64,000 nucleotides of DNA from a virus, in IMG/VR virus record IMGVR_UViG_3300017917_000952, positions 1 to 64,000 of that record; one strand, given 5' to 3'. Positions 41 through 60,584 of this stretch are shown piece by piece. Under the pieces are notes generated by a model that ran no database searches, was not told the origin of the DNA, and was given only the letters and a program-made list of their open reading frames with translations. Numbering within the stretch: the stretch's first letter is position 1; every line of letters starts with the position of its first letter. A program made the position numbers and the translations under genes.

Positions 41-91
41 GGTTAAAATAATTTCAATAGTGCCATCTCCTTCTGTTTTCATGTGTTAAAT

Positions 92-1477
92 ATGCACATG
101 GCAAACTTAGGAAATTTAATCAAGCTCAATCGCAACCAATCGAAGGTCGCTATTATTGACGAAGATGCTCGCGTAACCTATAGACAATTGCATAATATGT
201 CTAACTATGCCGCATTTCATCTCAAATCAAAAGGTATTGCACCCGGTGACAGAGTAGCCATTAAAGGTGTTAATACCATAGGCTATGTAGCGGCATATTT
301 AGGAATTTTAAAACTAGGAGCCGTAGCGGTTCTCATAAATGTAAAACTTCCACAATCGCAGGTTGAGTTTATTTTAAAAGACAGCAATGTTAAATTTTTA
401 TGGGAAGATCCAAAAATCCCTAGCGATGTGTTTGTTGAATTTACTCCACACGAAGCTCAGGACAGTGACCCGGCTATTGTAATGTATACATCGGGTTCTA
501 CAAGCCAACCCAAAGGAGTCATTCTTCCGCATAGCCACAAATGGATTATTGAAAAGAAATCAAATTATCCGGCGGCTGTTCATAGGAGAGCGATTGTTGC
601 CGCACCATTATATCATATGAATGGCCTAAGCAATACCGAAACTACACTAAGCGGCCACGGTACTCTTATTCTTTTAAAAAGATTTGACCCGATACAATTC
701 TTAAAAAGAATAGCCTACCACCGAGTAAATTCTATTACATCTGTTCCTACGATGTTGGCATTGATACTTCAACATCAAGATGTAATGAAAAAATTAGATC
801 TAAAATGTGTTACACATATTGGAATGGCTTCTGCACCTGTTAGCAGACATTTATTTGAATCTCTAAAGGCTGCATTTCCAAAAGCAGTAATCAACAATGC
901 TTATGGAATAACTGAAGTTAGTCCGGGAATGTTTGGAAGGCATCCGACTCTACCCACGCCCGATATGAGTGTTGGATATCCAATACCTGGAATTGAATAT
1001 AGGCTAGTAGACGGAATTCTACAGGTAAAGAGTCCATCTATGTTCTTAAAATATAATAACCTAGCAACAAAAAACATAACCGAAGATGGGTTTTTTATCA
1101 CAAATGATTTGTTCAAAATAGACGAAAACGGGTTTTACTTTTTCTTAGGCCGCGCCGATGACATGTTTGTTAGCGGCGGGAATAATGTATACCCCCGTCA
1201 ATTAGAGTCAGTATTAGAAGAACACCCGTTAGTCAAACAAGCGGCAGTCATTGGCCTAGAAGATGATATTAAGGGGATGAAACCGTACGCATTTGTGGTA
1301 TCTACTGCCGGCGAGGACGAACTAAAAAGACATGTATTAGAATCGTTGCCGCCGAGTCATTGTCCTAGAAAAATTTGGTCGGTTATGACGATGCCACTAA
1401 CCAGCGTAAACAAAATAGATAAAAATGCACTAAAGAATCAAGCAAAAGAGTTATTAAATGTTGTTCAACAGAATTGA
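92..1477 (+). CDS. Adenylate-forming acid-CoA/acyl ligase (AMP-binding)
   Basis: Activates a carboxylic acid as acyl-AMP and normally transfers it to CoA or a carrier protein. The P-loop YTSGSTSQPKGVILPH lies near residues 132-147, NAYGITE follows mid-protein, GRADDMFVSGGNNVYP marks the hinge, and a C-terminal lysine near 441 fits the catalytic A10 lysine, though the usual GK is NK. At about 461 residues it is slightly short for the family but complete. The frame opens with GTG at 83; ATG at 92 or 98 is more likely, and no strong ribosome site decides it. It is the first gene of a coupled operon with an SDR and a BKACE enzyme, which suggests activation of an acid released or used there. The substrate is unknown. 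Confidence 0.88.
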   Translation: MHMANLGNLIKLNRNQSKVAIIDEDARVTYRQLHNMSNYAAFHLKSKGIAPGDRVAIKGVNTIGYVAAYLGILKLGAVAVLINVKLPQSQVEFILKDSNVKFLWEDPKIPSDVFVEFTPHEAQDSDPAIVMYTSGSTSQPKGVILPHSHKWIIEKKSNYPAAVHRRAIVAAPLYHMNGLSNTETTLSGHGTLILLKRFDPIQFLKRIAYHRVNSITSVPTMLALILQHQDVMKKLDLKCVTHIGMASAPVSRHLFESLKAAFPKAVINNAYGITEVSPGMFGRHPTLPTPDMSVGYPIPGIEYRLVDGILQVKSPSMFLKYNNLATKNITEDGFFITNDLFKIDENGFYFFLGRADDMFVSGGNNVYPRQLESVLEEHPLVKQAAVIGLEDDIKGMKPYAFVVSTAGEDELKRHVLESLPPSHCPRKIWSVMTMPLTSVNKIDKNALKNQAKELLNVVQQN

Positions 1478-2195
1478 GAATCTTAACGGTCAGGTAGCCG
1501 TAATTACCGGAGCCAACGGCGGTGTCGGGTTTGCTGTTGCAGAAAGACTAGCAAAGTCGGGTGCTCAGATTATCGGAATAGTTAGACGCAACGTAGAAGA
1601 AATGCAGGCAAGGTTAGATCAACTAGGGCCAGGTCATAGAGCCCTATTAGCGGATGTAACTAGCAGCGAACAATTAATATCGGCGGCGGCCCAGATCACA
1701 CAGTGCGATATACTTATTAATAATGCCGGCGCTTCTACTCCTATCGATCATAAAAATTTAACCTCGCTGACGGACGAAATTTTTGAAAACGTAGTAAAGG
1801 TTAATCTAAACGGCGTATTTTACACTACTAAGGCATTTTTACCTCTCCTACGAAAGAGTCAGAATGCACTGGTTGTTAATATAAGTTCGGCTAGTAGTAT
1901 ACGAACAGGCGGCAGCAATGTTGCCTATGCAGCCGCAAAAGCAGGGGTTGACTCATTGACTAGAAATTTAGCAAAGGCCCTTGCTCCAATTAGAGTAGTA
2001 AGTTTAAATCCTACACTTATAAAAACTAATTTTACACAAATGCCAGACTCTTATTACCATAACGCAGGTCTAGGAACTCCATTAAAACGAGTAGTTACTG
2101 TAGAAGATGTTGCATCAACTGTAGAGGCACTGGCAACTACAGTGAGATTTGTAACCGGCAACAACATTGTCATTGACGGAGGAAGAACACTATGA
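1458..2195 (+). CDS. Short-chain dehydrogenase/reductase (SDR)
   Basis: NAD(P)-dependent oxidoreductase of the classical SDR family, 245 residues as usual. The cofactor motif TGANGGVG is at 17-24, NNAG at 88-91, and the catalytic set Asn116, Ser144, Tyr157 and Lys161 is complete (YAAAK). It overlaps the ligase by 20 nt and the BKACE gene by an ATGA, so translation is coupled. Next to BKACE the natural guess is oxidation of a 3-hydroxy acid to the 3-keto acid that BKACE cleaves. A FabG-like reductive role is the alternative. Confidence 0.9.
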   Translation: MLFNRIENLNGQVAVITGANGGVGFAVAERLAKSGAQIIGIVRRNVEEMQARLDQLGPGHRALLADVTSSEQLISAAAQITQCDILINNAGASTPIDHKNLTSLTDEIFENVVKVNLNGVFYTTKAFLPLLRKSQNALVVNISSASSIRTGGSNVAYAAAKAGVDSLTRNLAKALAPIRVVSLNPTLIKTNFTQMPDSYYHNAGLGTPLKRVVTVEDVASTVEALATTVRFVTGNNIVIDGGRTL

Positions 2196-3064
2196 CTACA
2201 ATTATAACCTGTGCTATAACAGGAGCGGTCACTAGTAGAGATCAAACTCCGTATCTTCCAGTGACTCCTGAAGAGATTGCAATTAGCGCACTTGAAGCAG
2301 CAGAAGCCGGCGCGGCAGTAGCGCACATACATGTTCGAGATCCCGAAACAGGAAAACCGAGTATCAATGTAGAGTACTACAGAGATACAGTTGATAGAAT
2401 TCGTAAACAAAATAAAGACCTTTTGATTAACTTAACGACTGGGCCTGGCGCATTTTATTTGCCAAGTTTTGGTGTTAACCTAGCACAAGGTGCTCCAGGA
2501 ACTTTACTACTAGGCGCCGCAAAACGTGTAGAGCATATTCAGTTAATTAAACCCGATATCTGTAGTTTAGATTTTAATACCATGCATCAGGCCGGAGACG
2601 GTATCAGAATAAACCATAAACGTGTTACTAGAGAAATGCTAAGGTTAGTTCAAGAAGCAGGTACGAAACCAGAGTTAGAGATCTTTGATAGCGGAGACCT
2701 TCGCATAGCACAAGAGTTTGTTGCAGAAGGATTGGTAAAAGGTAAACCATTTTGGCAATTTGCCATGGGCGTTAAATATGGCTGGGGCGCAAGCACCAAT
2801 GCACTACAATATGCTTACAGAGAACTAACACCGGGATCGTTGTGGAGTGCCTTTGGCATAGGAAAAGAACAGATGCCATTTGTTGCACAGACAATGTTGT
2901 TAGGTGGGCATGTTAGGGTAGGCATGGAAGATAATATCTACACCAGTAAGGGAGTGTTAGCAAAAACTAATGCAGAATTGGTTAGTATGGCCGTTGACAT
3001 TATCAGACTATTAGGAGGCAAGGTTGCATCCTATCAAGAAGCAAGGGAAATTTTATTACAATGA
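2192..3064 (+). CDS. Beta-keto acid cleavage enzyme (BKACE, DUF849)
   Basis: BKACE enzymes condense a 3-keto acid with acetyl-CoA and release acetoacetate plus a new acyl-CoA, as in lysine fermentation and carnitine breakdown. The N-terminus ITCAITGAVTSRDQTPYLPV is typical of the family. By comparison with the lysine-pathway enzyme Kce from memory, His45 and His47 (HIHVRD) and Glu246 should bind zinc, with Arg242 and Asp247 beside it in RVGMEDN. The Kce residue Glu14 is Val here, which I believe many relatives share. At 290 residues it is full length. ATGA overlaps join it to the SDR and to the next gene. Confidence 0.88.
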   Translation: MTTIITCAITGAVTSRDQTPYLPVTPEEIAISALEAAEAGAAVAHIHVRDPETGKPSINVEYYRDTVDRIRKQNKDLLINLTTGPGAFYLPSFGVNLAQGAPGTLLLGAAKRVEHIQLIKPDICSLDFNTMHQAGDGIRINHKRVTREMLRLVQEAGTKPELEIFDSGDLRIAQEFVAEGLVKGKPFWQFAMGVKYGWGASTNALQYAYRELTPGSLWSAFGIGKEQMPFVAQTMLLGGHVRVGMEDNIYTSKGVLAKTNAELVSMAVDIIRLLGGKVASYQEAREILLQ

Positions 3065-3843
3065 CACAAGAAAGATTAGATACTAGACAGTCCTATTTCT
3101 ACAGGGATCATACCGGGATACGAAGAAGATACGGAATATACATGCCTGCTATTGATAGATTCCTGCATGTGTCAGAACAAGATTTATGGATGAGTCTCGA
3201 AACTGCTGAGATTCTAAGTTCCAAAGTACAAACTATGCTATATGTGCTGCCCCCTGGTTACATAAAAGTTCCCGAGTATACCGAACTTATTAATAATCAA
3301 AACTGTCTCAATTGGGGCATCTATGACAAGTCAAAATTAAAGATAGGTTCCGGCAGTGCGCTAGGTGCCAGACAGACTCCTATTATAGGTATGCTTTATC
3401 CTGATGATCGATTAGAAGAACATCAGTCTCTTCCAGAAGACTTTATCGAAGATAGTTCTATACTAATAGGTTTGAAAGACTATGCAGATTATGTATATCG
3501 AAGAGTTTTAGGAATTAGCATTGCAGTGAATTTTTATAATCCGTATTTCTCAAAGAAATTTATAGAAAAATATATCGACAATGATTGGGTAGAAAATAAA
3601 GAAAATTCAGCAGACCCTTCCTTTTCAAAAGGTATTGAATTTGAAATTAAGAAAATACTTTACCAGTGCAACTCTAAGGAAGAAGCCGAAGAAGCAATTA
3701 CTAATTTCTGGCTCGAAAATTATAGAAACGTAGGATTTATTATGGTAGGATATTATAAGGTAATCGGAGAAAGAATCCCAGAAAAACTAAGACCATACGC
3801 TTCAAATATTCACTATCTTAACCATTCAGTGTGGGTCATATAA
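3061..3843 (+). CDS. Unknown protein in the BKACE operon
   Basis: I do not recognise this 260-residue protein. It has no signal peptide or membrane segment and is rich in Tyr, Ile and charged residues; the middle part (FIEKYI, EEAEEAI) looks helical. It overlaps BKACE by an ATGA and its TAA shares one base with the next ATG (TAATG), so it is coupled on both sides and probably works with the PP-loop protein that follows. Confidence 0.75.
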   Translation: MTQERLDTRQSYFYRDHTGIRRRYGIYMPAIDRFLHVSEQDLWMSLETAEILSSKVQTMLYVLPPGYIKVPEYTELINNQNCLNWGIYDKSKLKIGSGSALGARQTPIIGMLYPDDRLEEHQSLPEDFIEDSSILIGLKDYADYVYRRVLGISIAVNFYNPYFSKKFIEKYIDNDWVENKENSADPSFSKGIEFEIKKILYQCNSKEEAEEAITNFWLENYRNVGFIMVGYYKVIGERIPEKLRPYASNIHYLNHSVWVI

Positions 3844-5102
3844 TGCTTAATATAAACGATACACTTTATTTTTCAAGCCATGTTGTGAATTGGTATACTA
3901 GAGATACTTGGGATAAGGTATACAAAAACGTCCCTCCAGACGGTCAATGGTACCTAAAGGTGTACGAAAAGGTCTTACCTAATCGATTAATAACAAGGAA
4001 TGGGGAGTGGACTACTCCGTGGCCCCAGGAACTAATTCCTAAATTTAAGATGCCCGAGTACGATCCTTACTTTAGTAAATCGTTCGAACAGGTGACAGAT
4101 GAAAACGCTCTACGGATAAGGGATAGAATTCTCCAAGGAGAAAAGTTTGCCGTCATGTATTCGGGGGGTATTGATAGTACACTAGTTCTTTCATCGTTGA
4201 TTAAAAATCTTAGCAGTGAAGAATTAGAAAATGTAACTGTAGTTTGTAGTGGAGAAAGCATTGCCGAGAACCCTGTGTTCTATAGTAAGTTCATTCACGA
4301 AAAAATGAAAACCCTAGATTCTAAACGACACAAATATGATGACCTGATTAATCTAGGTTTGACTCCTATTATTTCAGATGAAGGAGATTGTATTTTTGGA
4401 ACACTTATCGGGCTCAATATGTACAACAGTTTTGATGCCTTAGTTGATCACGTATCGGGTCCCGTAAAAGAAAATCTAAGGCTTCTAAAAGATAAAATTA
4501 GCGATCCCAGTGTTCATTACAGTACATTTAAAGACCTAATTATTAAATTTTTGGATTTACCGCATTCACCGACATTTGGTAGAATTCTGTACGACAAATA
4601 TGATCATAATATAAGAACTGCAACAGTTCCTGTTCATAGTCTCCATGATTTTTTCTGGTGGTTAATTTTCAACGTTAAATATTACAATTGTTCCGTTAGG
4701 GGTGCAATATATATCAACGATACTATAGATATCAACACAGCCGTTCACAGAATCCATAATTGGTTTAATGATGAAGATTACCAACGATGGAGTATGGCAA
4801 ACAATAACAATGGAACAAAAATTAAAAAAAGTATCCTCAGTTATAAAACGGCGGCTAAAGAATATATCTACTCCGTTGATAACAATATTTGGTACAGAAC
4901 CTTTAAGACAAAATTAGAGTCCCTGTGGAATATAAGTAACTTGCAAAATGTACAGAATATTCCGATGGAAAAAAGGCCTGTAGCAAGGATAGCAGTTAAA
5001 AAAGAAAACTGGGAATTGGTGCATCTTACTGACCCGGGGGTGGTTGAGTATTTTACTCATCATGCATCAAATTATAAAATAGATTGGACAGACATCAAAT
5101 GA
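3843..5102 (+). CDS. PP-loop ATP pyrophosphatase, asparagine synthase-like
   Basis: Contains the ATP pyrophosphatase signature SGGIDS at residues 107-112 after a beta-strand (KFAVMY), as in asparagine synthase C-domains, NAD synthase and tRNA-thiolation enzymes. These adenylate a carboxylate, amide or uridine and release pyrophosphate. There is no N-terminal glutaminase domain. The frame extends to a GTG at 3831, but ATG at 3843 makes a TAATG reinitiation junction with the upstream stop and is preferred (419 residues). It overlaps the following TctC gene by an ATGA. It is one of four PP-loop proteins in the window. The substrate is unknown. Confidence 0.8.
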   Translation: MLNINDTLYFSSHVVNWYTRDTWDKVYKNVPPDGQWYLKVYEKVLPNRLITRNGEWTTPWPQELIPKFKMPEYDPYFSKSFEQVTDENALRIRDRILQGEKFAVMYSGGIDSTLVLSSLIKNLSSEELENVTVVCSGESIAENPVFYSKFIHEKMKTLDSKRHKYDDLINLGLTPIISDEGDCIFGTLIGLNMYNSFDALVDHVSGPVKENLRLLKDKISDPSVHYSTFKDLIIKFLDLPHSPTFGRILYDKYDHNIRTATVPVHSLHDFFWWLIFNVKYYNCSVRGAIYINDTIDINTAVHRIHNWFNDEDYQRWSMANNNNGTKIKKSILSYKTAAKEYIYSVDNNIWYRTFKTKLESLWNISNLQNVQNIPMEKRPVARIAVKKENWELVHLTDPGVVEYFTHHASNYKIDWTDIK

Positions 5103-6004
5103 AAAAATTTTTAGCAACCTTATTATTAGCAACTACAGCATTTGTGGCACATGCTAAAGAAAATATTACAATTTTCTATGCATGGGGTCCAGGTGACTCT
5201 GTAGCAAACTATCATCGCACTATCGCTGCTGAAGCAAACAAAATTCAAGACAAATACAATTTTATCTTTGATACCAAGCCAGGCGCAGGTGGTGCAATCG
5301 CATCTAACCACGTACTTAATACTCCTAACAGTGTATTGGCACATAGCACAGCATTTTTTGTGCGTCCTGTAGTGTTCCCTAACGAAAGTTATGATTTAAC
5401 AAAATACAAAGAACAATATGTTCACTGCATGGCCCCAATGGCTGTGACTAGTACAAAGTATAAAACTGTAAAAGATGTACCTGCCAACGCTAGTGTAGGT
5501 ATTAGCGGCCTAGGTGTTACTACACACTTAGCAGCACTAGAACTAAAGAAACGTTATCCGGATTTAAATATCGTTCCTTTTAAATCTACCAACGATAGTA
5601 TGTTAAGTATGGTAAGCGGTCAAACTGATCTACATATTGGATTTATCAGCGAAGCAGAACAATGGAGTAAAGAAAACTCTAACAGTGATCGTAAGGTAAA
5701 TGTTTTAGGTATTACTGGATCAAAAGTTGTTAATGGTTACCAACCGTTGGTTCGTCAAGGCTTCGACGCTAGTTTTGCCGACATGAATGTTGGACATCAT
5801 CTCCTAGTACCAACAACAGTCAGCGAAGAAAAGCGCAAAGAGTTTCACGCCATTTTTGCTCGTGCAGCCCAGGCTCCTAGCGTTCGTGCTGCCTATGCAG
5901 TTGACTACTGCGAACCACAGGCTGTTACCTATGACGGTTTAGACAAGTTCTTCTTGTTCCATACAAACTATTGGAAGAAGTTAGCATCTGCGGTTAAACT
6001 ATGA
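5099..6004 (+). CDS. Secreted TctC/Bug-type solute-binding protein 1
   Basis: Periplasmic receptor of the tripartite tricarboxylate transporter type. Starting at ATG 5099 (ATGA overlap) gives 301 residues with a clear signal peptide ending VAHA near residue 19; a start at TTG 5084 would only bury it. After the signal come a TctC-like first strand, KPGAGGAIASN, and a second half with VPFKSTNDSMLSMVSGQ, matching the TctC segments PGAGG and PYKG..DLLGGQ. Known relatives bind carboxylates and hand them to a TctAB membrane unit, which is not in this window. It is coupled to a second TctC-like gene. Confidence 0.82.
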   Translation: MKKFLATLLLATTAFVAHAKENITIFYAWGPGDSVANYHRTIAAEANKIQDKYNFIFDTKPGAGGAIASNHVLNTPNSVLAHSTAFFVRPVVFPNESYDLTKYKEQYVHCMAPMAVTSTKYKTVKDVPANASVGISGLGVTTHLAALELKKRYPDLNIVPFKSTNDSMLSMVSGQTDLHIGFISEAEQWSKENSNSDRKVNVLGITGSKVVNGYQPLVRQGFDASFADMNVGHHLLVPTTVSEEKRKEFHAIFARAAQAPSVRAAYAVDYCEPQAVTYDGLDKFFLFHTNYWKKLASAVKL

Positions 6005-6894
6005 TTAAGAAATTAATTATTGGAGTTCTAGGGGCATTGGCTATTTCGGCCAATGCTGCCGAAACTATTAAGGTATACAGTCCTTACAGTGCGAGCCACA
6101 GCGGTACTCCTGCATTGTTACGAGTGTTAGACCAAGCAAACGCAAATCAAAATATCTATAAATTCGTTCCAGAATTTAAACCGGGCGGAAATCAGATCAT
6201 CGCTGTAAAAAGTGTAGATGCAAATAGCCTGGCAATTATTGCACCTGCGTTTGTTGAGAATGTAGAATCGGGTAAACTTAATGAGTCTGACTATGTTCCA
6301 GTTTATGCACTCGGTGATGCCTGCTGGGCTGTGATCACAAACGGACCTTTAGAAGGTGCTAAGGAAGTTACAGTCGGCGGGGTTGGATTTGGCAATGCTG
6401 CACACTTAACAGCACTAGCATTAGGCGAGAAGTTTAAGTTTAACGTTCGTTATATTGTTTTTAGATCTAACAACGATGCACTGGTTAACATGACTGGAAA
6501 CAACGGTGTAGAATTTGTTGTTGAAAAATACGAAAGTTACGAAGGATTAAAAACTAAAAATCCTAATCTAAGAGTTATTGCTGCTAGTTGTCCTAAGAGA
6601 TTACCCCAGGCACCAAAAGTAAAAACACTCAAGGAAATGGGAATAGAAGCACCCTATGTCTTCAACATCATTGTATCTAACAGAGAAATGCCCAGTGGTC
6701 GTAGGTTAGCAATTTCAAAAATCTTAAATGACGCTACTCTAGCACTAGGCGAAGAAGAAATTTTTAAAATCTCTGCAATGCGTCCTCCTGTGTTCGATGG
6801 TGTCACTGCTGAAGATTTTTATGTAAAATCTACAGATCTTGTCAAAAATCTTCAGAAAAAGTATAGGTCTAAGATTGAAGAATCCAAAAAGTAA
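6001..6894 (+). CDS. Secreted TctC/Bug-type solute-binding protein 2 (divergent)
   Basis: Second secreted TctC-like protein, 297 residues, with a signal peptide ending near SANA at residue 20. FKPGGNQIIAV replaces the usual KPGAGG segment and GFGNAAHLTALAL matches the mid-domain helix of the neighbour, so the two may be diverged duplicates. It begins in an ATGA overlap with the first copy and ends just before a strong terminator, so it is the last gene of the ligase-SDR-BKACE operon. The ligand is unknown. Confidence 0.72.
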   Translation: MIKKLIIGVLGALAISANAAETIKVYSPYSASHSGTPALLRVLDQANANQNIYKFVPEFKPGGNQIIAVKSVDANSLAIIAPAFVENVESGKLNESDYVPVYALGDACWAVITNGPLEGAKEVTVGGVGFGNAAHLTALALGEKFKFNVRYIVFRSNNDALVNMTGNNGVEFVVEKYESYEGLKTKNPNLRVIAASCPKRLPQAPKVKTLKEMGIEAPYVFNIIVSNREMPSGRRLAISKILNDATLALGEEEIFKISAMRPPVFDGVTAEDFYVKSTDLVKNLQKKYRSKIEESKK

Positions 6895-6902
6895 CTAAAT
6901 AT

Positions 6903-6931
6903 ATGAGCATGAAAGGTTCATGCTCATTTTT
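6903..6931 (+). terminator. Rho-independent terminator closing the BKACE operon
   Basis: A perfect 11-bp stem (6903-6913 with 6917-6927), an AGG loop and a short T run. It lies 8 nt after the second TctC stop and isolates the DctP-like gene that follows. Confidence 0.88.
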
Positions 6932-6944: not shown

Positions 6945-6956
6945 GGAGCCTAAACA

Positions 6957-7904
6957 ATGACAAAAAAGCACGTAAAATGGGTTATCGCCCATGAGCCTAT
7001 TGGATTATTCCTAAAGGTAGCAGAGCGTTTTGCTAAGGAAGTAAACGAGCAGACCAACGGTATGTTCGATATCGAAGTTCTTTCTCTAAGCGATTATTCT
7101 GCAAAGTACAATGATGGTAAGAAAATTACCAAAGACGACCTAATGAAGTTAGTAGATACTGGCGCAATCGAAATGAGCCACATCTACACAACATGGTTAG
7201 CAGACTACAACAAAGATCTACACGCATTAGATCTACCTTTCTTATTCCGTGATCACGCACACGCTGACGCAGTTCTAGAAGGCGAAATCGGTGCAGAGCT
7301 TCTAGCAGGTGTTTCTAAGAACAGCAACATCAAGGCTATGAGTTTCACATATAGCGGTGGCTATCGTGTTGTTCCTGCAAACTTTGCAGCAGACACAGTA
7401 GAAGCATGGCAAGGTAAGAAAGTTCGTACCAGCCGTAGCCCAGTTGCAGTCGACACATTCAAACTGCTAGGCGCACAACCTTTTGAAGGTATTGCTTTAG
7501 AAGAAATGAATCAGGCTGCTGACCAAGGTATTATTGAAGCAGGCGAGAGCACATACGTTCGCGTATTCCCTCTAGACCAGCATAAGAGCTTCGAAGTTGT
7601 TAACGACACAGCACACAGCCTATTCTTAACAAGCATTATTGTTAACCAAGATTTCATGGCTCAGTTCAGCCAAGAAGTTCAAGAAGTTCTTGCAACAGCC
7701 GCATTCAATGCAGCACGTCAAGAGCGTCGCGAAAGTGTTGCTAACATTCCTGAAATCCTAGAACTTTGCGAAAAAGAAGGTGTTCAGGTTGTTAAGATGA
7801 GCGCAGAAGAAGAGTGCAAGTTCAAGGCAATCACAAGTCAGGTTTATGACATGTATGCCGACTATTTCACTCCCGGCTTAGTCCAGAAGATTCAGTTACA
7901 GTAA
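6957..7904 (+). CDS. DctP-family TRAP solute-binding protein without signal peptide
   Basis: Clear DctP fold: FLKVAERFAKEVNEQTNGMF near the N-terminus, DLPFLFRDHAHADAVLEGE mid-domain, GYRVVPAN and the ligand-arginine region GKKVRTSRSPVAVD, then AADQGIIEAGESTYV. Family members are exported receptors for dicarboxylates and sugar acids, but this 315-residue protein begins directly with the mature domain. An in-frame TAA two codons upstream rules out a longer, signal-bearing form. Ribosome site tggagcc is good. Its codons use more C-ending forms (AAC, GAC, ATC, TTC) than its neighbours, and it sits alone between two terminators, as expected for strong separate expression. It may be cytoplasmic or packaged. 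Confidence 0.88.
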   Translation: MTKKHVKWVIAHEPIGLFLKVAERFAKEVNEQTNGMFDIEVLSLSDYSAKYNDGKKITKDDLMKLVDTGAIEMSHIYTTWLADYNKDLHALDLPFLFRDHAHADAVLEGEIGAELLAGVSKNSNIKAMSFTYSGGYRVVPANFAADTVEAWQGKKVRTSRSPVAVDTFKLLGAQPFEGIALEEMNQAADQGIIEAGESTYVRVFPLDQHKSFEVVNDTAHSLFLTSIIVNQDFMAQFSQEVQEVLATAAFNAARQERRESVANIPEILELCEKEGVQVVKMSAEEECKFKAITSQVYDMYADYFTPGLVQKIQLQ

Positions 7905-7921: not shown

Positions 7922-7944
7922 AAAGGGCCATATGGCCCTTTTCT
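7922..7944 (+). terminator. Rho-independent terminator after the DctP-like gene
   Basis: Stem AAAGGGCC (7922-7929) and GGCCCTTT (7934-7941) with an ATAT loop and a T run, 18 nt after the DctP stop. Confidence 0.85.
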
Positions 7945-7969: not shown

Positions 7970-8569
7970 ATGTGGATGCCTGTTGATTTTAAAGAAATTG
8001 GAAAAATAGATCCGGAAATATTAAATCCGGTTATAGAACTATTTGATACAATAAACTGGAATGATTTTTCATACAGACGTCCAGAACCTAAACTGCGTGC
8101 CGGAAAATTACTGGCTTTGCCTTACCTGTTATACAAATATGATCATCCTGTTTATACCGAAGAGCAGCAGATGATAATTAAGGCCGTGGAACCAGTAGTA
8201 GATGAGATTATTAAACTATTCCCCGGTTATGTAAAAGTTCGCGGAGAAATTGCAACATTATTACCGGGGGTTGAATTACCTTTACATACTGATATTGTTT
8301 GGTTTCATAAGTATTGTAGGCGAATACACATTCCTATAATAACTAACAAGGACTGTTACCAACAATTTGAAAATAGAACTTCTCATTTAGAGTTTGCAAA
8401 AATATACGAGATTAATAATAGAATAATGCACGGTGCTGGTAATCTCGGAAACAGCCAACGCATACACTTAATCCTTGACTTGCTCAGTGACAACATCTAT
8501 AATATAATTGATAAAAAAGTATATCAACTTATGACGGCGCTGCCAAAAAATGAAGTCAAAATTTATTAA
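7970..8569 (+). CDS. AspH-like 2-oxoglutarate/Fe(II) oxygenase-like protein 1
   Basis: A 199-residue protein with the jelly-roll pattern of aspartyl/asparaginyl beta-hydroxylases: LPLHTDI (His106, Asp108), a basic strand RRIHIPII (118-124), then INNRIMHGAGNLG with the distal metal His154, and QRIHL with Arg164 for 2-oxoglutarate. AspH enzymes hydroxylate side chains using Fe(II) and 2-oxoglutarate. ATG 7970 lies almost at the predicted late start site, so ATG 7976 is an alternative. It overlaps the dCMP deaminase gene by 20 nt. The substrate is unknown. Confidence 0.7.
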   Translation: MWMPVDFKEIGKIDPEILNPVIELFDTINWNDFSYRRPEPKLRAGKLLALPYLLYKYDHPVYTEEQQMIIKAVEPVVDEIIKLFPGYVKVRGEIATLLPGVELPLHTDIVWFHKYCRRIHIPIITNKDCYQQFENRTSHLEFAKIYEINNRIMHGAGNLGNSQRIHLILDLLSDNIYNIIDKKVYQLMTALPKNEVKIY

Positions 8570-9098
8570 CGCATATATGAATGTGGCAAAAGAGTTTGCC
8601 AATCTAAGCCATGCACGACGATTACACGTCGGTGCTATTGTAGTCAAAGACGACCGTATCATCAGCATCGGCTACAACGGTATGCCTGCCGGTTGGGATA
8701 ACGACTGTGAATACAAAGATTACTGCCTAAGCAAAGATCTCAATGGAAATTATTTTCCAGGGGCGGAAGAAGAATATCCGTTTGTAGAAGAAGAACACGG
8801 TCCATATTACGAGTATACTCGTCGGTACCGTCTTAAAACCAGACCAGAGGTATTACATGCAGAATCAAACGCTATTGCAAAACTGGCGAAGTCTAATGAC
8901 AGTGGTGATGGGGCTGACTTATTTGTTACTCACAGTCCTTGTATCGAGTGTGCCAAACTCATTTATCAGTCAGGCATTCGTCGTGTTTATTTTGGTGAAC
9001 ACTATCGCGACGATGCTGGGATTGAATTCCTCAAGAAGTCGGGCGTGGAGGTAGTACAACCCCAACTAGGTGAATCCGAGGAACCTCAGAGCAATTAA
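8550..9098 (+). CDS. dCMP deaminase
   Basis: Deaminates dCMP to dUMP to feed phage dTTP synthesis. The zinc site is HAE at residues 103-105 and PCIEC at 130-134 with Glu105 as proton shuttle; the N-terminal RRLHVGAIVV strand is typical. At 182 residues with an insert between strands 2 and 3 it matches T4 Cd-type enzymes. ATG 8550 lies inside the end of the upstream oxygenase-like gene. Its 3' end overlaps the convergent gene at 9031. Confidence 0.9.
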   Translation: MKSKFINAYMNVAKEFANLSHARRLHVGAIVVKDDRIISIGYNGMPAGWDNDCEYKDYCLSKDLNGNYFPGAEEEYPFVEEEHGPYYEYTRRYRLKTRPEVLHAESNAIAKLAKSNDSGDGADLFVTHSPCIECAKLIYQSGIRRVYFGEHYRDDAGIEFLKKSGVEVVQPQLGESEEPQSN

Positions 9099-9588
9099 TA
9101 AATGTGTGCTTCTTTGTTGTATCTACATAGTAACTAGTGCCGTCAGCGGGCATGTGCTCTATAGAATTCTGTTCCGGAAAAATCATTAAACATTGGGGAT
9201 TAGTAATCACTGGTAAATGTATCCTAGGATACGGATCAGAATGTATGCTGTAGCAGGCCCTGGGATTCATGTACATTAATCTTGTTCTAACAATCCTATA
9301 CTCACTAAGTGATTGCAACCATTGATCAACAAAACCGCCCCGTAGTTTAGGGTGAATAAATTTATACTGGGGCTCTACTATCATTCCTCCGGTTTTTCTT
9401 ATTCTGCCGGTTGACTCGTAGAACTGCTCTATGCTATCATTGTTAGGATCTTTCACCTGCAGGCCTAACTGCATAACGTTTTCTCTAAACGGAAAATTTT
9501 TGATTAGGTCGTTTATTTCGCTAACTAAGTTATAGAAATTCTCAAACTTCTTGATAGGCGTACAGATCATATCAATATTTAATAACAT
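9031..9588 (-). CDS. AspH-like oxygenase-like protein 2
   Basis: A 185-residue protein with the same core order as the other AspH-like genes here: CYSIHSDPYPRIHLPVIT (His-x-Asp followed by a basic strand), then DTTKKHTFINCSE with the distal His and a basic RIHLVGVV strand. No signal peptide. It is alone on the minus strand between plus-strand genes, and its last 68 nt are antisense to the dCMP deaminase. The start near 9588 is not fixed by a strong ribosome site; an ATG six codons in is also possible. Confidence 0.68.
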   Translation of the reverse strand: MLLNIDMICTPIKKFENFYNLVSEINDLIKNFPFRENVMQLGLQVKDPNNDSIEQFYESTGRIRKTGGMIVEPQYKFIHPKLRGGFVDQWLQSLSEYRIVRTRLMYMNPRACYSIHSDPYPRIHLPVITNPQCLMIFPEQNSIEHMPADGTSYYVDTTKKHTFINCSEVPRIHLVGVVLPPRPTS

Positions 9589-9609: not shown

Positions 9610-10536
9610 ATGAACTTAAAACCCCTAGTTGCAGCACTAGTTACTGCATTTACACTTCAAGTCGGCATTGCTAATGCAGAATTTAATCCTGTAGGTAAAC
9701 AGGTTAATGTTATCATTCCGTTTGCGCCAGGCGGCGGAGTAGATCAGACATTTAGACATCTTCAGACTTATGCTTCAAAGAAAGGCGTTAATCTTGTCGC
9801 AATTTATAAACCGGGTGCAGAAGGGCTGATCGCAATGAGCGAATTAGTTACCAAACCTGCAGACGGAATGACCGTTAGTGTTACTACAGCAGGCGTTATT
9901 GCCAATTACCGATTAAAGAATCCGTCTACAGATGTAGTTGCTATCTCTGGTATTCGAGACAGTATCATGGCCTTGGTTGTTAGTAATAAGAGCCAAATTG
10001 AAAGTCTAGACCAATTAGACAAAGATCTTAAAGAAGGTAAAAAACTAAATGTAGGATATGGTGCACCAGGGCAGCAGATGTTCTTAGAGCAGTTCTTTGA
10101 ATTAGCAAAGGCAAAGAAAGGCGTTGCCATGGTTCCTTATAAGGGCGGCGGGCCGGTTGTTACTGACCTACTAGGCGGGCATATTGATGTTGCAGCAGTA
10201 CCGTTATCAATTGTTAAGGCACATATCGATTCTGGAAAAGTAAAATTAGTAGGATTAGCCAGCAGAGCAAAGATAGAAGGTTATGATTCTACTCCGCTAA
10301 TGAAGGCCAAGTATCCAAAATGGGAAGAGTTTGATAACTTTGCAGTTGTTGCCGAAAAAGGCACAGACAAAGAAGCCATTAATTGGTGGTCTAATTTCTT
10401 AAAAGATTATATCAATGACGAATCTGTTAAGAAGGATTTTGTCAAAGACATGACTGTACCTGTCGAGTTTGGTGCAACTAACCTAGAAAAAACAATTCAG
10501 TCTAGCATGAATAGACTTAAAAAGAATGGAAATTAA
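9610..10536 (+). CDS. Secreted TctC/Bug-type solute-binding protein 3
   Basis: The most canonical of the three TctC-like proteins, 308 residues: signal peptide ending IANA near residue 23, first strand VIIPFAPGGGVDQTFR, YKPGAEGLIA, and VPYKGGGPVVTDLLGGHIDV, all hallmark TctC segments. The ribosome site aaggaa is well placed. Its last 11 nt overlap the next oxygenase gene, tying a periplasmic receptor to cytoplasmic oxygenases and a radical SAM enzyme. Bug receptors are especially numerous in Burkholderiales, which hints at the host. Confidence 0.9.
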   Translation: MNLKPLVAALVTAFTLQVGIANAEFNPVGKQVNVIIPFAPGGGVDQTFRHLQTYASKKGVNLVAIYKPGAEGLIAMSELVTKPADGMTVSVTTAGVIANYRLKNPSTDVVAISGIRDSIMALVVSNKSQIESLDQLDKDLKEGKKLNVGYGAPGQQMFLEQFFELAKAKKGVAMVPYKGGGPVVTDLLGGHIDVAAVPLSIVKAHIDSGKVKLVGLASRAKIEGYDSTPLMKAKYPKWEEFDNFAVVAEKGTDKEAINWWSNFLKDYINDESVKKDFVKDMTVPVEFGATNLEKTIQSSMNRLKKNGN

Positions 10537-11290
10537 AAAATTTACAGACCGTGTAAAGTACAAGAGTTTACCCCCGGACTTTAATCATCAAAACGGGGTA
10601 AACTTTCAAAGTTCTTACGAATACACAAAAACATTCAGTAACTATCATTTTAACAAATGGGTTGTTGAAGGCGACGGCGACTGGTATCATTCATTAGGCC
10701 GATTTGAAGGCGACTGGACTGCCGACGTTGAAAAAATTATTGAAAAGAGTAAAGAACTAAGTTGGGATCAAAGCACTAAGTCAGGACTTCGACCGGGATT
10801 CAAAGGCGGACAGAGTCCCATGAAAGCGCAGGAAGAATACGATCGCGCCCAACACGGACTTGATAAGGTAGATCAAACTAATTTAGTTCTTGAGGATTTT
10901 TTAGATCAATTTCCTACTATCAAGAAAATGATAGATTACTGGGAACTAGAAAAGGTAAGTTATCGGGCACACGTTCAATGGCCTGGACAATGCTTCGGTG
11001 TTCATATTGACAAATTGTGGCATAGGTGTCCGGAAGATCCTAGCCGTATTGTAAGACTTATTCTTAATCTAGCAGACTATGAACCTGGTCAGGTAATTCT
11101 TTACGGTAACAGTGTGCTAACGCAATGGCATGCCGGAGACATTCATATTTTTGATACACTAAACGTTCCTCACGGTACATTTAATCTAAGCACTAGTCCA
11201 CGACCTAATATTACAATAACTGGTCTTAGAACTGAGGCCACTGACCGTAAATTAGCAGCAGCAAACAAAGATTCAAGATATCAAATATGA
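10526..11290 (+). CDS. AspH-like 2OG/Fe(II) oxygenase-like protein 3
   Basis: A 254-residue protein with FGVHIDKLWHRC (His-x-Asp), a basic strand SRIVRLILNL, GNSVLTQWHAGDIHIF and NVPHGTFNLS with the distal His, then RPNITITG. This fits a double-stranded beta-helix oxygenase of the AspH or prolyl-hydroxylase type. The first 120 residues (WYHSLGRFEGDW, LRPGFKGGQ) are an added domain I do not recognise. It starts inside the TctC gene and ends in an ATGA overlap with the next gene. Confidence 0.68.
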   Translation: MEIKKFTDRVKYKSLPPDFNHQNGVNFQSSYEYTKTFSNYHFNKWVVEGDGDWYHSLGRFEGDWTADVEKIIEKSKELSWDQSTKSGLRPGFKGGQSPMKAQEEYDRAQHGLDKVDQTNLVLEDFLDQFPTIKKMIDYWELEKVSYRAHVQWPGQCFGVHIDKLWHRCPEDPSRIVRLILNLADYEPGQVILYGNSVLTQWHAGDIHIFDTLNVPHGTFNLSTSPRPNITITGLRTEATDRKLAAANKDSRYQI

Positions 11291-11859
11291 CTCCCTACGA
11301 GCCCTTGAATATATGGTTGCCCGAAGATCTTCCTCTATATCAAAAATATAAAGATCTAAAATATAGACAGGTAGATACTGGAGCATATGAAATAGATAAA
11401 ACTTTTGAACGGGCAGGCCTTTCTATGAAAGAGTTTGAATCTGTTCCTGCCTTACTTGATCTTATAAAAAAATATAAGATGTTGTCAAAAGTGTTTATGC
11501 TATTGCCTAACACCACGTATAATTGGCATGTTGACGCATTTAGGTACGTAGCATTTAATTGTCTACTTACTACAGACGACTCTAACTATCTTACTTTGTT
11601 TTGCGATGAATTAGAAAAATATAATCTTGTATACTTCAAAACTAAAAGATTAGTATATGAACCAAGAAGATTTTATTTGTTTAACACACAGGTTCCTCAC
11701 ATAATAACAAATTATAGCGACAAACCTAGATATCTAATTTCTATTGCACCCTACTTTGCAGAAAAAATTTCTAATGAAAACATTAAAGCCACTGATAGAA
11801 ATTTTTCTACATATCTTAAAATTGTCGAAGAATTAAAACTACAAGGCCTGATAAATTAA
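11287..11859 (+). CDS. AspH-like oxygenase-like protein 4
   Basis: A 190-residue protein carrying the core TTYNWHVDAFRYVAFNCLL (His-x-Asp and basic strand), then YLFNTQVPHIITNYSDKPRY with the distal His and Arg. It resembles the three other AspH-like proteins in order and size but not closely in sequence. ATGA coupling to the oxygenase before it and a 3-nt gap to the radical SAM gene after it suggest one operon. Confidence 0.65.
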   Translation: MTPYEPLNIWLPEDLPLYQKYKDLKYRQVDTGAYEIDKTFERAGLSMKEFESVPALLDLIKKYKMLSKVFMLLPNTTYNWHVDAFRYVAFNCLLTTDDSNYLTLFCDELEKYNLVYFKTKRLVYEPRRFYLFNTQVPHIITNYSDKPRYLISIAPYFAEKISNENIKATDRNFSTYLKIVEELKLQGLIN

Positions 11860-13293: not shown

Positions 13294-14210
13294 GGCAGTT
13301 TGCCGTCTTTTAGATATTTAGAAAAGCACAATCTATTAGATCCTGTTCCTCGATTGTACTCTGTAAACTTATCTGTAGAAGTTGCGAAAAATACACACTT
13401 AGTCGGATTCACTCCTAACTGATCACTAAACATTTCCTGAGTATTTCTATAGGTATTATAGTTGTAATCGGGACTGTATTTTTCAATTAGTTTTTCACCA
13501 ACAGCGGCTCCTAAACGATTTACATATTTGTTTTTGTTGTAAACAAACAAAGGATCATCATTATCTAGTCGTGTTAACCTCATTCCTATTCTAAGATGTT
13601 GTACAGGAAAGTTTTTGCTTAGACTAAAAACTATTTCTTCAATACATTGATAATTAAAATCAAATTTTACATTACCGCATACACCAAAATAGCAACAGTC
13701 TACTAATACAGGAACATTTAGTTTTTCACAGACAGATAAAATATCTTCCATTAAGGGATTTTCTGCTCCGTTATCGGCGAAAGGTAAACTAAAAATTACA
13801 ACATCGTCTGCACGGATAGCATCGTCTTCGATAACTGCAACTCTATCAAAGTATGCTTTACCTGATGCAATGTGATACATGTACTCGCCTTTGAAATAAC
13901 GAAGGCGACGTTCTTTATGTTTTAGATAAAATTTATCAAATGCTTCCGTTGTTCCGTTACTGAAAGCAAAGGCATTGAAATTTTCTAGTCCTGCAATTTG
14001 ATTGTTCTTTGTTGATAAGATCCATTCTTTATATTTTCTGCAGAACCGATCGTGAACTTCAACATCATTTAAGCAACCTTCGGCAACAACAGTATTAATA
14101 ATACCTGCAACTTCTTGTTCTAGTTCTTCGTTTTTTACACAATGTACGCTACCGAAGGGTAGGCTTTTTAATTTTAACAGTGCATTCCACTGTTCTTCTT
14201 TTTGAGTCAT
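13290..14210 (-). CDS. PLP-dependent aminotransferase-like enzyme (fold type I)
   Basis: 306 residues with the signposts of class I/II aminotransferases: FAFSNGTTEAFD (phosphate-binding turn near 82-91), PVLVDCCYFGV (Asp171 for the PLP nitrogen and Tyr174), and SLSKNFPVQHLRIGMRL with the Schiff-base Lys199 and the usual RIG. At about 300 residues it is much shorter than the usual 380-400, and the small C-terminal domain is reduced. Its start shares a base with the stop of the PP-loop gene upstream (TAATG), so the two are co-translated. Confidence 0.75.
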   Translation of the reverse strand: MTQKEEQWNALLKLKSLPFGSVHCVKNEELEQEVAGIINTVVAEGCLNDVEVHDRFCRKYKEWILSTKNNQIAGLENFNAFAFSNGTTEAFDKFYLKHKERRLRYFKGEYMYHIASGKAYFDRVAVIEDDAIRADDVVIFSLPFADNGAENPLMEDILSVCEKLNVPVLVDCCYFGVCGNVKFDFNYQCIEEIVFSLSKNFPVQHLRIGMRLTRLDNDDPLFVYNKNKYVNRLGAAVGEKLIEKYSPDYNYNTYRNTQEMFSDQLGVNPTKCVFFATSTDKFTEYNRGTGSNRLCFSKYLKDGKLP

Positions 14211-15337
14211 TATTCGCTCACAAATATTTTCTTGGTAGGAATTAATCTATAACCTTTGTTCCACCACATTAGGTTAGGACGCAACTGCGACAGATGCTCT
14301 GCGGCCATATATTCGTATCTGTCTTTAAACTCTTTTAGTTCAGGGTACTGCCATAACCAGAAGTGTTTATCAGATCTATTAAGTCTAAGAGGTTTCTCTG
14401 CCTGGAATCTATCTGTCCAATTAGTATATAGAACATGGCGTAAAAACTTTTGTTGTTCTTTTTGTTTGAAGTAAAACATTTCAAGACTGTTCTTTACATC
14501 TCTTGTAAATGCTAATTCTGATAATTCTTTTTCTCTCTTGAATACTTTAATTGCTGCATTGGCCATTTCAAACGCAAGAATAGGAAATTTCGGTGTCCAG
14601 TAAAAATATTCCGTGCCGTAGATATTACCAGGATAAGGTGTTCCCATTGTAACAGCAGAGTCACAGAACCACATATAATTTTTATTGTCTTCGAAATAGG
14701 TCTTAGGTTTGTCAACACCGTATATCGATGCTACTTTCTTACCTTGCTCAGACAATTTAATTTCATTTGGACTCCATACTGCTAAAGAAGTAACTTCTAC
14801 ATCGTGCCAGTGATTAACTAGGCCAAATATTTCTTCTTGACCGATGGATGTTCTATCTTTAAACCAATCAACAATTTCAATTTTTATGTTAGGGTGTTTT
14901 TGAGCGACTTCTTCCAGGACCGGTTTGATAGCGTAGTCCCATTCACTCAAATAATTTACCGCGGTTTTTTCTTCTGTATTAGGTACGTAGATACCTCGGT
15001 CAATAACATCCGACGCCCATTTTACACAAATTTCATCTAGATGTATTCCGTTATCTAAAAATGAACGTAATACATTATAACTGTCAGCGCCGCCCGAGAA
15101 GTATAAAATAAGATAATCGTAACTGTCTCGCAACTGCTGAGCACGTTGTTTATATAGTTCATTGAGACTAAATTTACCAATCAATGATCTATCAAAATTT
15201 TGCCACACATCATCAAAAAATCTATACTGAACAGTGTTGTTTGTTTTAGTTGCATAGAGCAAAGCCTGATATTTGTTTATAAACTTTTGATCAGCGACTT
15301 CCCAATATCCTTGAGGGTAATTTTCTATAAATTGCAT
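14210..15337 (-). CDS. PP-loop ATP pyrophosphatase, asparagine synthase-like
   Basis: 375 residues with SGGADS at 81-86 after YDYLILYF. The rest fits an adenylating amidotransferase-like C-domain without a glutaminase half. A TATAAATA box on the minus strand lies 9 nt upstream. The stop overlaps the start of the PLP enzyme, so the pair may act in sequence, for example adenylation or amidation of an amino acid coupled to transamination; that is inference. The C-terminus is basic and aromatic (RPNLMWWNKGYRLIP). Confidence 0.78.
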   Translation of the reverse strand: MQFIENYPQGYWEVADQKFINKYQALLYATKTNNTVQYRFFDDVWQNFDRSLIGKFSLNELYKQRAQQLRDSYDYLILYFSGGADSYNVLRSFLDNGIHLDEICVKWASDVIDRGIYVPNTEEKTAVNYLSEWDYAIKPVLEEVAQKHPNIKIEIVDWFKDRTSIGQEEIFGLVNHWHDVEVTSLAVWSPNEIKLSEQGKKVASIYGVDKPKTYFEDNKNYMWFCDSAVTMGTPYPGNIYGTEYFYWTPKFPILAFEMANAAIKVFKREKELSELAFTRDVKNSLEMFYFKQKEQQKFLRHVLYTNWTDRFQAEKPLRLNRSDKHFWLWQYPELKEFKDRYEYMAAEHLSQLRPNLMWWNKGYRLIPTKKIFVSE

Positions 15338-24656: not shown

Positions 24657-25349
24657 ATGGTTGATACTACATATGATTCAGTTTCTTATAGATCTGCAGG
24701 CGAGATCAACACCGCAATGGGCAGAGTCTATGCTAACATGGGTCTCGCAGTTCTTACATCTATGCTGATTAGTTATTTGGTAGGTAGTAGTCCTGCACTG
24801 TTGGCATTCTTTTTTACAGGTTTCCTAAAGTGGGTTGTAATTTTTGCACCACTAGTTGCTGTATTTGGAATTGGATTTGTTCTAGAAAACGAGAAACTAC
24901 CCAAATCGGTTTATCATTTATGTCTACACGGGTTTGCTGGACTGATGGGCCTAAGTTTTGCAACAATCTTTGCCGTTTTCCAAATGGGTAGCATTGTTAG
25001 TGCCTTCGTAGGAGCAGGAGTTCTATTTGGGGTAATGAGCTTTTACGGGTACTTTACCAAAAAAAGTCTAGATAGTTTAGGAAAATGGTTACTTGTTGGC
25101 TTGATTTCTATCGTGATTGCTAGTATAATTAACTTGTTCGTTGGTAGTTCTGTATTTCAAATGGTTATTTCGACATTAGCCATTGTAATTTTTACAGCAC
25201 TAACAGCATATGATACACAACAGATTAGGGAAGAATTAAGCGTTAGTACCAGCGAGGCTGCAGAAGTCCGTGGCGCTCTAAGATTGTACTTAGACTTTAT
25301 TAACCTATTCATCCATCTTTTACAACTTTTTGGTAGTAAGAAAGAATAA
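24657..25349 (+). CDS. Bax inhibitor-1/YccA-like membrane protein
   Basis: 230 residues with about seven membrane helices from residue 27 on, and the family features AMGRVYANMGLAVLTSML, TIFAVFQMG and the C-terminal TALTAYDTQQIREE with Asp, followed by LYLDFINLFIHLLQLFG. Bacterial YccA and YbhL members restrain FtsH or leak Ca2+. In a phage it may protect membrane proteins from FtsH or time lysis; that is inference. Confidence 0.88.
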   Translation: MVDTTYDSVSYRSAGEINTAMGRVYANMGLAVLTSMLISYLVGSSPALLAFFFTGFLKWVVIFAPLVAVFGIGFVLENEKLPKSVYHLCLHGFAGLMGLSFATIFAVFQMGSIVSAFVGAGVLFGVMSFYGYFTKKSLDSLGKWLLVGLISIVIASIINLFVGSSVFQMVISTLAIVIFTALTAYDTQQIREELSVSTSEAAEVRGALRLYLDFINLFIHLLQLFGSKKE

Positions 25350-55024: not shown

Positions 55025-55780
55025 ATGAAGCATATATTTAGGTTAACTGAAAAATCAGTCCTGATCAACAGATATATTCTGTTATCAGGATTTCTCTTAT
55101 TGCTGTATTACGGAACACTAATTCACTGGCTCGTTGTTTTAGGTGTTTATCTAGTCAAGGGACTTATGGGTACTGCGGTTATTCACAGAGGACTTTCTCA
55201 CAGAGCCTTCAAAATGAATAAATTGGTTGAGAGATTGTTTGGAGGATTTTCTCTGTTAGGGACAAATTCTACTCCTATTTCATGGGTAGCAGTTCATCGA
55301 CAGCACCATAGATTTTCTGATCACCAAGGAGATTTACATAGTCCGCAAATATACCCTTATTGGGATGTTCAATTAATGAAGTTCCACGATCCTATAGATC
55401 TAACTTATGCTCCGGATTTAGTTCGTCAACCTTACTATACATGGCTTTTTAGATACCACTGGGCAATCAGTTATAGTATTGCCTTACTATTATTAATAAT
55501 TGATCCTATGCTACTTTTATGTGCGTGGCTTGCTCCAAATTTTATACAATCATATGCAGGAACTACTGTAAACGCACTTAACCATATTAATTTTGGTTAC
55601 AGAAATTTTGCTACCAAAGATAACAGCCATAACAACTGGATTACAGGAATCTTCTGTTTAGGTGAAGGATGGCATAACAATCACCACCACGACCCTGCAA
55701 ATCCAAACTTCGGAGTTAAATGGTGGGAGTTTGATTTAGGATATCAATTTGTAAAACTAATTCAACAAAAAACCGCATAG
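55025..55780 (+). CDS. Acyl-lipid/acyl-CoA fatty acid desaturase
   Basis: 251 residues. Three His boxes of delta-9-type membrane desaturases: HRGLSH at 54-59, HRQHH at 91-95 and HNNHH at 217-221, with membrane helices near 17-50 and 148-180. It introduces a cis double bond with di-iron, O2 and an electron donor. It may alter host membrane fluidity during infection; the acyl carrier, acyl ligase and PanD genes fit a lipid theme. Its 3' end is part of the terminator. Confidence 0.93.
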   Translation: MKHIFRLTEKSVLINRYILLSGFLLLLYYGTLIHWLVVLGVYLVKGLMGTAVIHRGLSHRAFKMNKLVERLFGGFSLLGTNSTPISWVAVHRQHHRFSDHQGDLHSPQIYPYWDVQLMKFHDPIDLTYAPDLVRQPYYTWLFRYHWAISYSIALLLLIIDPMLLLCAWLAPNFIQSYAGTTVNALNHINFGYRNFATKDNSHNNWITGIFCLGEGWHNNHHHDPANPNFGVKWWEFDLGYQFVKLIQQKTA

Positions 55781-60017: not shown

Positions 60018-60584
60018 ATGGCAGGATTAGTAGATTCAGTATTAGGATTACTTCGTAAAGAACCGAAGGACCCAGACGCACCAAAGCCGCCGGTGGGCAG
60101 TCGTAGCGAGCGAGAAGCAAAGATTAAAGATAAAGCAGGTCTAGTTATCAACGTCTTTGCATTATTGTTAGCCATTAACTCCTGGTATGGGGGTAAACTA
60201 TCGAGCACGGTATTAAACAATACTATTGCTGCAAACAATCAATGGTCTTGGTACCAGGCAAAGAACGTCCGAGAAGTTCTATACACAACTAGCGCCCTAG
60301 AAGCAAAGGTTCCTGAGAACAAAGCAAAGTTTGAGGCAGAAGCCGCACGTATGAATGCCGATAAGAAAGAAATCTTAGAAAAGGCTACCAAACTAGAAAA
60401 AGAACGCGACGAAGCAAAACTACGTAGCCCGTGGATTGGTTATGCTAATACTGCATATCAATTAGCGATTGTGTTACTGTCTGCGAGTATTCTTGCTGTC
60501 AGTATGCCTTTATTCTGGGGCAGTTTTGTAGTTGCTGGAATTGGCTTATTATTAAGCAGCCAAGGACTATTTCTCTGGCTTTAA
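60018..60584 (+). CDS. DUF4337-type membrane protein, holin candidate
   Basis: 188 residues. One helix near 41-58 (LVINVFALLLAINSWYGG), an Ala/Lys/Glu coiled middle (90-138) and two helices near 142-188. AINSWYGGKLSSTVLNNTIA and WSWYQAKNVREVLY match the DUF4337 family as I recall it. Placed right after the endolysin, it may form the lysis hole or control timing. Confidence 0.68.
   Translation: MAGLVDSVLGLLRKEPKDPDAPKPPVGSRSEREAKIKDKAGLVINVFALLLAINSWYGGKLSSTVLNNTIAANNQWSWYQAKNVREVLYTTSALEAKVPENKAKFEAEAARMNADKKEILEKATKLEKERDEAKLRSPWIGYANTAYQLAIVLLSASILAVSMPLFWGSFVVAGIGLLLSSQGLFLWL

Follow-up and report, generated by a model that had tools for sequence, protein, structure and literature searches.

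Solute-binding proteins (SBPs) are extracytosolic by definition, and those encoded by phages are usually read as nutrient-scavenging helpers. The closest described relatives of the phage protein considered here are the DctP-type SBPs of TRAP transporters (PF03480; SiaP, DctP, 4ovr, 4nq8, and 4xeq), with which it has in common the sequence family, a two-lobe fold (Z ~35), and the arginine that contacts the ligand carboxylate. In SiaP, the carboxylate is bound by Arg147, and an arginine is present at this position in 96.8% of DctP SBPs (PMC4646407). Unlike these receptors, the phage DctP has no signal peptide, no DctM was found with it, its first lobe contains a YxxKYN segment that ordinary TRAP SBPs lack, and its codon use resembles that of capsid genes. 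The occurrence of DctP in phages is annotated already, in two proteins of ~160 aa from uncultured Caudovirales named "TRAP transporter solute receptor DctP/TeaA" (A0A6J7WI33 and A0A6J7WKL0), which are 41-51% identical over the fragment. However, these BFVD fragments are partial database annotations only, and the literature searched yielded no paper that deals with a phage DctP lacking its signal peptide. Exported orphan proteins of Bdellovibrionota (L116, L121, and L122) are 44-47% identical and share the HEP, YTT, and TYSGG motifs with the phage DctP, but they carry clear signal peptides and are encoded by single genes on bacterial contigs. Two further comparisons are more distant. TctC/Bug-type proteins are also phage-borne SBPs, but they belong to another family (PF03401) and keep their signals. 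In binding stoichiometrically inside the infected cell, DctP would resemble the sponges Tad1, Tad2, Acb2, and Acb4, although their families are unrelated to DctP and their ligands are nucleotides.

The DNA analyzed here (the window) covers positions 1-64000 of a virus record with a length of 206,751 bases. This T4-like virus has a gene matching the PHROG "major head protein" family at 137848-139035 and sheath and tube genes at 166476-170104. The product of the DctP gene matched the PF03480 profile over the whole domain (138 bits; cut-off, 23.4) as well as NF037995 TRAP_S1 (108 bits; cut-off, 50), and its first residue corresponds to the mature N terminus of TRAP-type proteins. An earlier note, made from the sequence of the window, had assigned the gene to an exported family and had described an in-frame stop two codons upstream of its start; both statements held, and no signal was encoded in any upstream frame. 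GGAG/AGGA-like sites precede the same methionine in most relatives. The features of the locus are listed in Table 1.

Table 1 Features of the DctP locus in the window
Feature	Position	Strand	Basis or remark
260-aa protein of unknown function (c16), 5' of PP-loop gene	3061..3843	+	same pair beside DctP in ~12 other loci
PP-loop ATPase, asparagine-synthetase-like (SGGIDS), recurrent DctP neighbor (c1)	3843..5102	+	homologues in 67/90 DctP loci
TctC-type SBP with signal peptide (MKKFLATLLLATTAFVAHA), contrast case	5084..6004	+	clusters with 6001-6894 product; below Pfam threshold
TctC (PF03401) SBP with signal peptide, contrast case	6001..6894	+	Pfam
CTAAATA box, T4-late-promoter-like, 62 nt 5' of DctP ATG	6895..6901	+	enriched 7-mers
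11-bp hairpin with short T run, between upstream gene and DctP	6903..6927	+	-13.8 kcal/mol, z -5.3
GGAG ribosome-binding site, 8 nt 5' of DctP ATG (6957)	6945..6948	+	sequence
In-frame TAA stop, two codons 5' of DctP ATG	6951..6953	+	sequence
Signal-less DctP-family (PF03480) SBP, 315 aa	6957..7904	+	Pfam, 138 bits
8-bp hairpin with TTTTCTT 3' of DctP, probable terminator	7922..7941	+	-15.2 kcal/mol, z -4.6
Aspartyl/asparaginyl hydroxylase-like 2OG oxygenase, next gene after DctP, own TATAAATA box	7970..8569	+	PF05118

The AlphaFold model of DctP (pLDDT 94.4) aligned end to end with mature TRAP SBPs in Foldseek (TM 0.85-0.92), and in VIA, a DALI-like comparison, model residues 3-315 matched TRAP SBPs with a Z score of 35.5. 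The start of the model coincides with residue 3-4 of the mature proteins, and the predicted two-lobe TRAP SBP fold is intact. As read from sequence alignment, the pocket is likewise retained: R157 occupies the position of SiaP Arg147 and is invariant in an 18-row diverse alignment, together with the polar residues H12, E13, Y77, T78, Y132, E197, R202, and H220.

The earlier note had proposed a search for other signal-less DctP genes in phages, and such genes proved to be widespread. Scanning IMG/VR with the DctP protein of the window yielded 52 related loci with 63-87% identity, and a scan with the alignment of these loci identified at least 148 viral contigs encoding relatives, whose carriers are many freshwater and aquatic tailed phages. 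Signal peptides were judged from hydrophobicity and comparison of start sites. None of the 66 non-redundant relatives (~90 loci with a readable start) has a signal-like N terminus, while the adjacent TctC-type proteins in the same phages retain a signal peptide in 15 of 15 cases. The Kyte-Doolittle mean of the most hydrophobic N-terminal 12-mer does not exceed 1.62 in the 66 proteins, compared with 2.1-2.7 in exported relatives, and all readable starts precede the motif WV(I/L)AHEP by 4-8 residues. Viral relatives retrieved with an exported bacterial query were likewise signal-less. For an upstream frameshift restoring the signal, which the earlier note had considered, or an alternative start, there was no candidate in three frames, and the leaders of the relatives are mutually unrelated, with stops 0-26 codons upstream. 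Chance or an assembly artifact is ruled out by the at least 148 viral relatives and by the 0 of 66 with a signal, and bacterial contamination was rejected because phage structural genes surround the IMG/VR relatives. The comparison of N termini thus shows that the phage family never carries an export signal, and the DctP of the window, as encoded, cannot play the normal role of a TRAP receptor. A third TctC-type protein with a signal peptide is encoded at 9610-10536, in addition to the pair in 5084-6894; the three are presumably periplasmic scavengers.

Few relatives were found outside the viral data set. Matches in cultured phages are at most 24-25% identical and bacterial looking, and a scan of 84,980 species returned four related loci only; among sampled genomes, relatives were present in 8 of 240 in the phylum of G004 and in 1 of 369 in the class of G002. 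Two of the bacterial loci (L054 and L057) place a signal-less DctP on Bacteriovorax-type chromosomes, adjoining flagellin genes, so that the term "phage-specific" used in the earlier note is slightly too strong in its strict sense. At these two loci and in L055, a Gammaproteobacteria MAG, the gene order is MFS transporter, ~200-aa protein, and signal-less DctP (L057:2162-4948 and L055:358-3272), and the ~200-aa protein has an HxD...H...R pattern like that of 2OG oxygenases. In the same two Bacteriovorax-type genomes there are also relatives that carry clear signal peptides and lack an adjacent membrane partner, and further exported relatives come from other genomes of this phylum. These exported Bdellovibrionota proteins share most of the conserved motifs (HEP, YTT, TYSGG, and HSLFLTS). 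A phylogeny of 79 proteins groups the exported relatives into a single clan (85/98; 81% of bootstraps), from which every signal-less protein is separate, although the outgroup branches are too long for the tree to fix the direction of signal loss. DctP proteins outside this subfamily are exported. Given this single clan and the shared motifs, the most economical interpretation is that the compartment changed once while the pocket was kept.

The gene is also mobile. Phages whose DctP is 77-84% identical to that of the window have capsid proteins that are only 36-39% identical; where DctP is 83% identical, for example, the capsid protein reaches only 37%. Conversely, L086 has a capsid protein 77% identical to that of the window's phage, whereas its DctP is 59% identical. 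These discordant identities imply that DctP is exchanged among phages that are otherwise divergent.

The codon use of the gene sets it apart from its surroundings, as the earlier note had observed. The codons AGA, AGG, CGA, CGG, and ATA are absent from the DctP gene of the window and TTC, AAC, and CGT are preferred, unlike in neighboring genes, and within the same genome the major capsid gene comes closest in codon use, with tube, prohead-region, and sheath genes next. Rare arginine codons are fewer in DctP than in its neighbors in 80 of 83 loci (sign test, 2e-20, with rows that are not independent); ATA is less frequent in 81 of the 83, and TTC more frequent in 77. The neighboring PP-loop gene has no such bias. 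In ten further phages with a capsid gene, the codon use of DctP was capsid-like in eight but not in L060 and L077, and the signal-less genes of bacteria likewise show little or none of this bias.

The late promoter of T4 is TATAAAT (PMC3037559), and the intergenic leaders of the window's phage show a 24-68-fold enrichment of similar TAAATA-type 7-mers. Such a box is present in 22 of 26 DctP leaders of at least 40 nt and in 197 of the 276 leaders that precede other genes; since it is equally common in the leaders of neighboring genes, it says only that DctP is a late-region gene. Hairpins of the kind that flank DctP occur in 8 of the 26 DctP leaders compared with 84 of the 276 others, and the idea of a special DctP leader combining late box and hairpin was dropped, as neither is commoner there than in front of other genes. 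The two flanking hairpins, which the earlier note had taken for terminators, are real. However, a simple terminator scan of the + strand called neither of them and hairpins are not specific to DctP, so that a terminator function is plausible and no more. Similarly, the description of the gene as standing alone is correct for the window, where it has no co-directional overlap, but in ~50 relatives DctP sits in a dense string of late genes. The codon bias and the late box are both in line with late expression at capsid level, as indirect signs.

Two arrangements recur around DctP. One of them, shared by the window and about a dozen relatives, runs from the 260-aa protein through the PP-loop ATPase and often TctC-type genes to DctP; metabolic genes surround DctP in the window and ~20 relatives. 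In ~45 loci, DctP lies within baseplate/fiber genes, in the order baseplate/fiber genes, radical SAM/SPASM protein, ~100-aa protein, DctP, PP-loop ATPase, and fiber genes. Elsewhere, it directly follows sheath and tube genes (L092/L093) or is preceded by a tube-like gene and a head-closure gene (L036/L044/L051/L094). DctM (PF06808) was absent from the record of the window's phage and from eight other DctP phage records, whose contigs may be incomplete. The PP-loop protein of the window was modeled with a pLDDT of 79.6, and its best Foldseek matches were asparagine synthetase, beta-lactam synthetase, and LarE, all of them weak and none below E 0.001. The notion that the PP-loop partner forms one orthologous pair with DctP everywhere was weakened by the identity of only ~23% between window-type and fiber-type proteins. 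A necessary link of DctP to the radical SAM and Asn-Cys-rich fiber module was discarded because the phage of the window has neither.

The surroundings held several further observations. Some 40 loci (such as L005:2608-2994 and L003:2331-3443) encode fiber-type proteins and proteins of ~120 aa that terminate in long Asn-Cys repeats (NCNCNC...) and adjoin the peptide-maturase-like radical SAM/SPASM protein and the ~100-aa protein; this looks like a RiPP-like phage system that modifies cysteine-rich fiber tips. The window itself encodes four asparagine-synthetase-like PP-loop (SGGxDS) proteins with no glutaminase domain (3843-5102, 14210-15337, 60581-61456, and 61458-62330) and, at 83-3064, a metabolic string of AMP-dependent ligase, SDR, and BKACE (beta-keto acid cleavage enzyme); in L028, too, the neighbors of DctP include homologues of this SDR and this BKACE. 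A run of 2OG-oxygenase or aspartyl-hydroxylase-like genes is found next to DctP (7970-8569 by Pfam; 9031-9588, 10526-11290, and 11287-11859 putative). Inspection of the sequence by eye gave a putative Bax-inhibitor-1/YccA-type membrane protein at 24657-25349 and a putative fatty-acid desaturase with His boxes at 55025-55780.

The intact pocket and the capsid-like codon signature together point to a role by stoichiometric binding at the place where the protein is made. We therefore lean, at somewhat less than even confidence, toward DctP as a late, abundant, non-exported carboxylate binder that would act by stoichiometry in the infected cell. The protein would stay where it is made, be produced late and in large amounts, and close around one small carboxylate of the sugar acid, di- or keto-acid class; by its amount, it would hold or remove this acid in the infected cell, with no hand-over to a TRAP membrane pair. 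PP-loop ATPases are an enzyme class that activates carboxylates, and the neighboring one may consume or make the bound acid. The main rival, which we consider rather unlikely, is that DctP is a virion component, built into tail, baseplate, or head or packaged, and hence needs no signal; after adsorption, it could bind an outside ligand or dock on host TRAP subunits during entry. The loci within baseplate and tail-fiber strings or behind sheath, tube, and head-closure genes speak for it, as does a codon use like that of capsid and sheath genes, and fiber genes are highly mobile as well. However, among the relatives examined, DctP is never fused to a structural domain and is always a free SBP of ~315 aa, it has metabolic surroundings in the window and ~20 relatives, its exchange between phages with 37% identical capsids argues against a tightly fitted part, and the signal-less copies on bacterial chromosomes are not virion parts. 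A wider formulation, to which we give guarded and tentative credence, is that of a pre-cleaved receptor that tailed phages have repeatedly exchanged and that is present in cytoplasm or virion at capsid-like amounts, either as a free-standing sponge for a small molecule or as a virion part engaging host TRAP subunits at entry.

By analogy with the Tad and Acb proteins, which capture nucleotide signals, DctP might sequester a carboxylate-bearing immune signal or a toxic metabolite as a counter-defense sponge. The codon signature of an abundant protein, the intact pocket, the lack of export, and the mobility between phages would all fit, but the TRAP fold is not known to be tied to any defense signal, late-type boxes suggest late expression while sponges are needed early, and the copies in bacterial operons that include an MFS transporter point to metabolism, which makes this explanation improbable. 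Proteins of the MqnA type have a periplasmic-binding fold whose pocket is an active site, and a similar conversion of DctP into an enzyme might account for its many invariant polar residues and its enzyme neighbors (PP-loop ATPase, 2OG oxygenases, and radical SAM). We regard it as quite improbable, since most of these residues are also present in the exported relatives from bacteria, in appearance ordinary binding proteins, and enzymes do not usually have a codon bias at capsid level. Least probable of all is ordinary scavenging, in which DctP would reach the periplasm by a signal-free route (leakage, lysis, or an unknown one) and feed a host TRAP transporter. Its family membership and the exported TctC-type proteins of the same phages, presumably scavengers, are consistent with such a role, but the signal is absent from all DctP relatives though their TctC neighbors keep theirs, and no DctM was found in nine DctP phages. 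The cytoplasmic, packaged, or scavenging role foreseen by the earlier note is thus supported overall, except that scavenging in the periplasm is unlikely.

A signal-less phage family that keeps its pocket and has a capsid-level codon signature contradicts the nutrient-scavenging reading of phage-borne SBPs, and it warns that such phage DctP genes are not to be annotated as transport genes. The ligand, if found, would name a small acid whose level in the infected cell or virion merits a large outlay of protein.
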